Assembly: GCA_028869315.1 (NCBI GenBank)
Contig: JAGWSV010000076.1
Location: 1-50,093 of the forward strand
Length of the DNA stretch: 50,093 nucleotides
Direction: 5' to 3'
Source of the DNA: Rhodospirillales bacterium
GTDB lineage: Bacteria > Pseudomonadota > Alphaproteobacteria > Acetobacterales > Acetobacteraceae
The notes beneath the pieces are model-generated. The model was not told the origin of the DNA. It saw nothing but the letters and a program-made list of their open reading frames with translations, and searched no databases. Numbering within the stretch: the first letter of the stretch is position 1; each line of letters begins with the position of its first letter. Shown here one piece after another: positions 7,676 through 47,035 of this stretch. Made by a program: the position numbers and the translations under genes.

Positions 7676-7705
7676 AAGGGGCCGGCGTCGTCCGGCCCCT
7701 TTTTT
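7676..7705 (+). terminator. Rho-independent terminator after hsp20
   Basis: AAGGGGCCGG-CGTCGT-CCGGCCCCTT followed by T-tract. Confidence 0.9.
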
Positions 7706-44649: not shown

Positions 44650-45624
44650 CTACCGGTTGGGGGCGTCCTTCGCCCGATTGGGCGCGACCCGTGCCAGCAC
44701 CCGCGGCGCCGCCCGCAGGCCCTCCCCGAGGATGTGGGTGATGGTGCCCGGGTCGCGGACCATCTGCACGGCCGCCGCCGCGGGCCCCTGCCGCTTGAGC
44801 GCTTCGGCGAACCGGAACCAGGCCAGCGCAAGCTCTACCGTTCGGAGATGGCGGCGCAGCGCGCGGCGGAGCGCGGCCTGCTCCGCCCCGCTGGCCGCGT
44901 CGAGCAGGGCGCGCTCGCGCGCGATCAGGCGCGCGAGATCGCCGGCGCTATGGGTCGTGGTTCCCGAGCCGTCGCGCACCGTGTAGTCGTACAGCGCCTC
45001 CGGCGTTAGCACCCAGCGCGCGCCGCGGAGCAGGCAGCGCAGGGAGAACATGAAGTCCTCGGCGAAACGATCGTCGTCGTAGCGCAGGCCGGTCTCTTGC
45101 AGGAAGCCGCGGCGGATCAGCGGCTTGAGGTAGCCGAACCCGCGCCGGCCGCGACCCTGGCGCGACGTGTTGCCGGCGAGGAACGCGGTCGGGTCCAGGA
45201 GCGTCTCCGCCGGCAGCCAGGTGGACGAAAACATCACCGTCCCATCGGGCCGACCGTTGGGGCACAGGCGCTGGTTGTCGGCGACGATGTCGGAGCCGTG
45301 TCTTCCGGCGAGGTCGAGCAATCGTTCCAGGCGCTGCGGATGGAAGCGGTCGTCGGCGTCCAGGATGGCGATCCAGTCGCCTCGCGCAGCCGCCAACCCG
45401 AGATTGCGCGCCGCGCCCGGGCCGGCGTTGACCGGCGCGCGCACCAGGCGGATGCGCGGGTCGCGGGCCGCGCGTGCCGCAACGATCTCGGCGGTCGCGT
45501 CGGTGGAGGCATCGTCGACCACCAGGACCTCCAGGTCCCGCTCAGTCTGTGCCGATATCGAATCGACGGCGACGTTGAGGTACTGCGCCGCGTTGTAGGC
45601 GGCGACGATGACGGATACGCGCAT
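44650..45624 (-). CDS. Glycosyltransferase family 2
   Basis: MRVSVIVAAYNAAQYLNVAVDSISAQTERDLEVLVVDDASTDAT...WIAILDADDRFHPQRLERLL. Confidence 0.92.
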   Translation of the reverse strand: MRVSVIVAAYNAAQYLNVAVDSISAQTERDLEVLVVDDASTDATAEIVAARAARDPRIRLVRAPVNAGPGAARNLGLAAARGDWIAILDADDRFHPQRLERLLDLAGRHGSDIVADNQRLCPNGRPDGTVMFSSTWLPAETLLDPTAFLAGNTSRQGRGRRGFGYLKPLIRRGFLQETGLRYDDDRFAEDFMFSLRCLLRGARWVLTPEALYDYTVRDGSGTTTHSAGDLARLIARERALLDAASGAEQAALRRALRRHLRTVELALAWFRFAEALKRQGPAAAAVQMVRDPGTITHILGEGLRAAPRVLARVAPNRAKDAPNR

Positions 45625-46108
45625 GGCAGGGATGTTCGGACCATTCTGTGGCGCAACCACGGCGCGCCCGGTCAGGAATACGTGAGCGAACGATGCGACA
45701 ACGGAACACCGAATGGACGTGCCCCGGCCGATCGACGTTGCGTCGCAGGTTGTATTCCGGTCGTGTCCAGCCGCGCGCTGGGGCCCGGCGGTCGCTCCCG
45801 TCACGATGGGTTTTGCTGCGCGGCCTGGCCGAGCGCGGTAGCCGGGAGGGGCGGCTTCGCTCATGTTTGCGCGAGCGGCGGTCAGTTGCCGTCATGCGTC
45901 ATGCGTCATGCGTAGGTGCCGGGCCACTCGGCGGCCGCGGCGCGCGCGAGCCGGACCCGCAAGCGCAGAATCGACCGGCCGGATGCGTCGGACCGGGCAA
46001 CCGCCGACGCCAATGCTGCCCCCTCCCTCGCGCCGACCCATGGCCGCGCCGCGTCGCCGCCGTGTCGTTCAGTCGCGAAGACGCCCGCGCTCGGGGCGTG
46101 GCCATCGT

Positions 46109-46122
46109 TTGATTCAGATCAA
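46109..46122. promoter_or_regulatory. FNR/FixK/ANR-type binding site
   Basis: TTGAT-TCAG-ATCAA, exact match to the family consensus. Confidence 0.7.
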
Positions 46123-46156
46123 GGAAGCGGCGAGGCATGTCCCGTAGCGTTCGTCT

Positions 46157-46235
46157 CGGCCTTCCCTGGCCCCCTCCGCTTTCTGACGCCGGAGGGTGGG
46201 CCGCTCCTTCGCCCATCCCGGGAGCGGCCCTCTTT
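46157..46235 (+). ncRNA. Candidate FNR-controlled small RNA
   Basis: Possible -10 TAGCGT (46145-46150) placing a TSS 41.5 nt from the FNR box centre; stem CCCTCCG/CGGAGGG (46172-46196); hairpin GGGCCGCTCC/GGAGCGGCCC (46198-46230) then TCTTTC. Confidence 0.4.
46198..46235 (+). terminator. Hairpin with short pyrimidine tract
   Basis: 10-bp perfect stem GGGCCGCTCC...GGAGCGGCCC followed by TCTTTC. Confidence 0.55.
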
Positions 46236-46249
46236 CGGGGGTAGCTGGC

Positions 46250-46438
46250 CTACGACCTGGCCAGCAGGTGCATTCCCAGCCAGATCGCCACGACCACGGT
46301 TCCCCAGAAGGGGAGGACGATCAGCAGCCCGCGCGCGATGCCGCGGGGAGCGCGGAGGAATTCCGGGATCGGCGGACCGGAGGAGATTTGCTGCGGCGAC
46401 CGCTGCGTGCCCGGGGGCGTCGGCAACACGCTGTTCAT
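46250..46438 (-). CDS. Small single-TM protein of unknown function
   Basis: 62 aa; GLLIVLPFWGTVVVAIWLGMHLLA. Confidence 0.45.
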   Translation of the reverse strand: MNSVLPTPPGTQRSPQQISSGPPIPEFLRAPRGIARGLLIVLPFWGTVVVAIWLGMHLLARS

Positions 46439-46444
46439 GGTTGC

Positions 46445-47035
46445 TTATAGCAACTTTGTTCCTGCAAACTGGTTTCGCGCCGCTTGCCCCGCCGCTTGCC
46501 CTGTGACGTCCCCTGGAATGCCCCCTGGAATGCCCCCTGGAATTCCCCCTGGAATTCCCCCTGGGGCGTGCCCGACCGCCTGCGGGCCGTACGAAAGTGC
46601 CCGCAAGCCGGCCCGCAGCCGGTCGGAAGCGTCGGGTTGCAGCAGTTGCTCGATCTCCGCATGGGTGCGCCGCCATACCGGGGCTGCGGCTGCCAGTGCC
46701 AGCCGGCCAGGCTCCGTCAGGCGCAAGCGGCGGGCACGTCGGTCAGCCGGATCGACGCTGATCTCCACCAGGCCCCGGCGCCGCAGCGGCTTCAGGTTTG
46801 CGGTCAGCGTAGTACGGTCCATCGCGAGCAGGGACGACACGCTGGCGATTGCCGGCGGTTCCGGCCGGTTGAGCGACATCAGCAGGGAGAACTGGCCGTT
46901 GGTCAGCCCCAGCGGGCGCAAGGCGGCGTCGAACCGCCGGCCCACCGCCCGCGCCGCGCGCTGCAGGTGCAGACAGAGGCAGGTATCGCGAACCTCAAGC
47001 GTAAGTGAAAACGGAATCGCGTCTTGCGTTGACAT
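46445..47035 (-). CDS. MarR family transcriptional regulator
   Basis: LRPLGLTNGQFSLLMSLNRPEPPAIASVSSLLAMDRTTLTANLKPLRRRGLVEISVDPADRRARRLRLTEPGRLAL. Confidence 0.92.
   Translation of the reverse strand: MSTQDAIPFSLTLEVRDTCLCLHLQRAARAVGRRFDAALRPLGLTNGQFSLLMSLNRPEPPAIASVSSLLAMDRTTLTANLKPLRRRGLVEISVDPADRRARRLRLTEPGRLALAAAAPVWRRTHAEIEQLLQPDASDRLRAGLRALSYGPQAVGHAPGGIPGGIPGGIPGGIPGDVTGQAAGQAARNQFAGTKLL
46511..46564 (-). repeat. 12-bp tandem repeat in the C-tail of the MarR gene
   Basis: CCCTGGAATGCC x2, CCCTGGAATTCC x2, CCCTGG partial; encodes (GGIP)n. Confidence 0.92.

Follow-up and report, generated by a model that had tools for sequence, protein, structure and literature searches.

What an exact FNR/FixK box might control from within an intergenic gap is the question raised by a 50,093-nucleotide contig (C337; hereafter referred to as the window) of a Rhodospirillales genome (G000; 3.95 Mb in 360 contigs, 89% complete). 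The box, TTGATTCAGATCAA (positions 46109–46122), is an exact TTGAT-N4-ATCAA match and lies within a 625-bp gap, which is bordered on one side by a glycosyltransferase gene (44650–45624, minus strand) and on the other by a 62-amino-acid frame (46250–46438, minus strand) that comes directly after marR (46445–47035, minus strand). The preliminary description of this DNA had proposed that the box precedes an oxygen-responsive small RNA. For comparison, we used five congeneric genomes (G001–G005), 60 relatives and 300 genomes of the family. Coding-like codon use was absent from all six frames of the segment 45625–46250, in agreement with the earlier impression that no good open reading frame follows the box rightward. 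A 35-codon frame beginning under the box (46137–46244) was rejected on account of a codon score of −0.65 and of an ATG located before the predicted transcription start. The gap also contains 3.4 perfect copies of CGTCATG (45890–45913).

The box, noted before as an exact consensus site in a gap of about 600 bp, is the sole FNR/FixK box in the window. With up to one mismatch allowed, 0.24 matches are expected in the window by chance and at least one was present in 20 of 100 shuffled windows, a frequency that would be compatible with a site bound by no regulator. The observed box is exact, however, and the genome contains 21 perfect boxes as against none for the reversed-pattern control; by our own estimate, base composition at 70% GC would yield about 0.1. 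Given in addition a −10 element at the right offset (see below), we regard a chance box as very improbable. Genes directly downstream of other boxes, which we take by unscored sequence recognition to be hemN-, TauE/SafE- (cco region), nirK-, htpX- and sulfide:quinone-type oxidoreductase-like, look like an FNR-type regulon. The same genome encodes an FnrN-like regulator of the FNR type (L054), with an N-terminal CxxC-x7-C motif and the recognition helix ETVSR, and a FixK-type regulator (L053) with ETVCR; the two are encoded on contigs C347 and C326. As a separate observation, the start codon of the hemN-like gene lies 34–36 nt from the end of the FNR box in five of five genomes (L014, L124, L128, L152 and L169). 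This places it on, or immediately beside, the class II start, which suggests a leaderless FNR-driven mRNA.

The preliminary description had picked out the hexamer TAGCGT (46145–46150, plus strand) as a −10 element giving a transcription start near 46157, with the caution that the hexamer had been chosen partly for its spacing. We evaluated this element using the sequences downstream of perfect boxes in the five congeners, read in both directions (126 directed sequences) and excluding the source genome. In these sequences, A peaks at position +24 from the box end (50/126, p = 2e-13) and T at +28 (47/126, p = 4e-9), with T raised at +23 as well, and no other offset in the +20s and +30s of the 126 directed boxes showed a peak close to these. 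TAGCGT, which occupies +23 to +28, agrees with T23, A24 and T28. The hexamer is thus confirmed by a positional signal from genomes other than its own, which settles the worry about circularity, and the class II spacing holds: the box centre (46115.5) is 41.5 nt from the predicted start at 46157, with the −10 element at the matching offset. Since TAGCGT falls on the genus-wide A(+24) and T(+28) positions, a rightward class II FNR/FixK promoter with a predicted start near 46157 is well supported. More generally, where a promoter has been guessed from spacing, related genomes offer a check through the positions at which bases peak behind their own boxes.

The box, being palindromic, could instead act leftward, where the nearest downstream gene is that of the glycosyltransferase, and it might serve this gene from a distance or in a class I arrangement. 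The likelihood ratio under the congener-derived profile was 7.4 rightward but 0.47 leftward (the mixture weight of the profile fit is loose, and we rely on the ratios), and 1.9% of random window positions scored as high as the rightward match. Moreover, the glycosyltransferase start codon is about 490 bp away, with no coding frame in between. A leftward promoter is not supported by these values, and control of the glycosyltransferase gene from this box appears quite unlikely. In the rightward direction, the box belongs to a recognizable set: of the 181 directed boxes in the six genomes, 22 have YANNNT at +23, compared with a mean of 2.1 at other offsets, and nearly all 22 have a gene immediately behind. 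By the criteria used, only three of the 22, the window box included, have none, and for one of the other two (L130) an ATG lies close behind and may have escaped the coding filter. A transcription unit is therefore expected behind the window box too.

The segment 46157–46236 (plus strand), without coding signal and about 75–80 nt long, is predicted to fold into three hairpins. RNA starting at 46157 has a minimum free energy of −44.8 kcal/mol (z = −3.5); none of 200 shuffles was equally stable, and none of 250 random 80-mers from the window reached this z value. On the opposite strand, the fold stands out less (z = −1.8). Both structures described earlier are present, namely the hairpin at 46172–46196, in which CCCTCCG (46172–46178) pairs with CGGAGGG (46190–46196), and the GC hairpin at 46198–46236, in which a perfect 10-bp stem (46198–46207 with 46221–46230) is followed by TCTTTC. 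Perfect 10-bp hairpins per se occur in the window about as frequently as in shuffles and are not rare at its GC content. The loops are open but the CCCUCCG segment is fully paired, and the idea that its pyrimidine-rich CCCUCC acts as an anti-SD seed is thus not favoured.

The GC hairpin with its tail resembles an intrinsic terminator of a weak kind. Its tail has four T residues in six, whereas a clear terminator elsewhere in the window (7676–7701) has a T run, by comparison with which the tail is weak; the hairpin at 46198–46236 was also absent from the output of a consensus terminator scan that allowed loops of up to 8. A further hairpin of terminator-like form on this strand, GGTTGCTTATAGCAAC followed by TTTGTT (46439–46455), could provide a read-through end. 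The useful product might then be a longer RNA that passes the first hairpin and runs antisense to the 62-amino-acid frame and the marR end. The coding-like composition of the frame, which also has one hydrophobic stretch, would fit such a role, but among 36 relatives it has no homologue beyond a marginal 38% partial match, and we consider an antisense function improbable. DNA matches to this frame were located in other genes and frames and were rejected as homologues.

The conservation searches bear most directly on the small RNA. A DNA search of the gap against the five congeners, the 60 relatives and the 300 family genomes, in which the first pass of the large search scored the two best candidates per genome, returned only short chance matches. 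A single-sequence covariance model gave nothing convincing in 60 genomes, the best foreign match (E 0.16) being at a locus without an FNR-like box, and a scan of contigs for the exact sequence, leaving out the source genome, gave no match. The window candidate matched no Rfam family, RF00519 included. As far as these genomes go, all of them from outside the species, the box and hairpins are not conserved in close relatives, an outcome that the preliminary description had listed as evidence against its proposal. Nor does synteny extend beyond marR, even in the congener G003: the marR-thiS-BNR block is kept there, but the other flank differs, and the gene adjoining the block is SNF2-helicase-like, judging by its sequence. 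Concerning marR itself, its 3′ end (46510–46564) contains 4.6 copies of a 12-bp unit encoding a GGIP repeat, and the alignment with the MarR of G003 stops at residue 150, before this tail.

The locus would thus represent a small RNA of recent origin or else a promoter left stranded. The latter, our main rival explanation, supposes a real FNR class II promoter whose gene was lost when marR came to lie beside the exopolysaccharide cluster, leaving a functionless, short-lived transcript. The non-coding nature of the 625-bp gap, the different gene abutting the block in G003 and the lack of conservation all fit this supposition, but the box and the −10 element are intact and show no decay, and the 80 nt that follow the start have more structure than usual. 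We regard a stranded promoter as the less likely of the two. A small RNA, against which the missing homologues, synteny and Rfam match and the weak terminator tail must be counted, is plausible, and we assign a probability of about 0.55 to a lineage-specific, species-limited candidate small RNA activated by FNR/FixK. Of the original proposal, the box, the promoter geometry with its −10 hexamer and the structured non-coding segment stand, and FNR- and FixK-type regulators are present in the genome; conservation is not supported.

A better example of a small RNA behind an FNR box emerged from the covariance search itself. Among 89 FNR-box loci of the genus, the model found only weak matches, and the best (E 0.12) led to a different RNA, a copy of mmgR lying directly behind a perfect FNR box, TTGATCCAGATCAA, after which come GCTTGCGTTTCCTCCCTGAACTTGGCGGCG and a terminator of canonical form. 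This copy (C139:23258–23390 of the source genome, L017 1501–1633; also L131, L151, L149 and L166) is found in four of the six genomes of the genus (G000, G005, G002 with two copies, and G004) and, at the two loci with a flank read (G000 and G005), adjoins msrB. Four of the five FNR-linked copies exceed the threshold of Rfam RF00519 (mmgR/suhB), the fifth having an E value of 3e-4. mmgR occurs in 32 of 40 family genomes, with four copies in G000, and no FNR box stood upstream of those further family copies that were inspected. The FNR-linked copy in the source genome shows that small RNAs do come to lie behind FNR boxes in this lineage. We found no report of FNR control of mmgR in the openly accessible papers searched; in Sinorhizobium meliloti, it is under NtrC and AniA control (PMC7143759, PMC8401924).

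If the favoured small-RNA explanation is correct, the box would work as an FNR/FixK-family site, and the class II promoter to which it belongs would be active at low oxygen, starting rightward transcription at about 46157. The product would be a structured, untranslated RNA of about 80 nt ending at the GC hairpin near 46230; some transcripts might continue towards 46455 and there overlap the end of the marR transcript in antisense. It would act on its targets post-transcriptionally, and the accessible loops UUUCUGACG and UUCGCCCAUCCC, together with the 5′ loop CUUCCCUGG, would most likely do the pairing, not the buried CCUCC. Enterobacteria are known to have small RNAs that FNR activates directly. 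We tentatively raise the possibility that, in this genus, two small RNAs with no relation to each other came under the direct control of FNR/FixK: the conserved extra mmgR copy by msrB and the species-limited RNA of 46157–46236. The two would then form a minor riboregulatory branch of the oxygen response, recently arisen in the lineage, in which an FNR class II promoter before a small RNA and a recruited mmgR copy tie oxygen sensing to riboregulation. They would offer two clean, testable loci for riboregulation in this group.

Comparison with known systems places the candidate as follows. Like mmgR (alpha-r8; RF00519 'suhB'), it would be a short alphaproteobacterial RNA with a CCUCC motif and a GC hairpin, which is a terminator in mmgR and weakly terminator-like in the candidate; in mmgR, the CCUCC is an anti-SD motif, whereas that of the candidate is within a stem, and the candidate differs further in having no RF00519 match and in that 39.6% of shuffles align equally well to the FNR-linked mmgR copy. 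FnrS of E. coli is a verified FNR-dependent small RNA with more than 30 targets (Durand and Storz 2010, reviewed in PMC8139620). The candidate, a predicted RNA, would share with FnrS the intergenic location and activation by FNR at low oxygen; we claim no sequence similarity between them. PcrZ of Rhodobacter sphaeroides is low-oxygen-induced and FnrL-dependent, but it is apparently under direct control of PrrA, and its control by FnrL may be indirect (PMC8139620). The candidate would resemble PcrZ as an alphaproteobacterial small RNA with predicted low-oxygen induction, and differs from it in having a direct class II FNR/FixK box.
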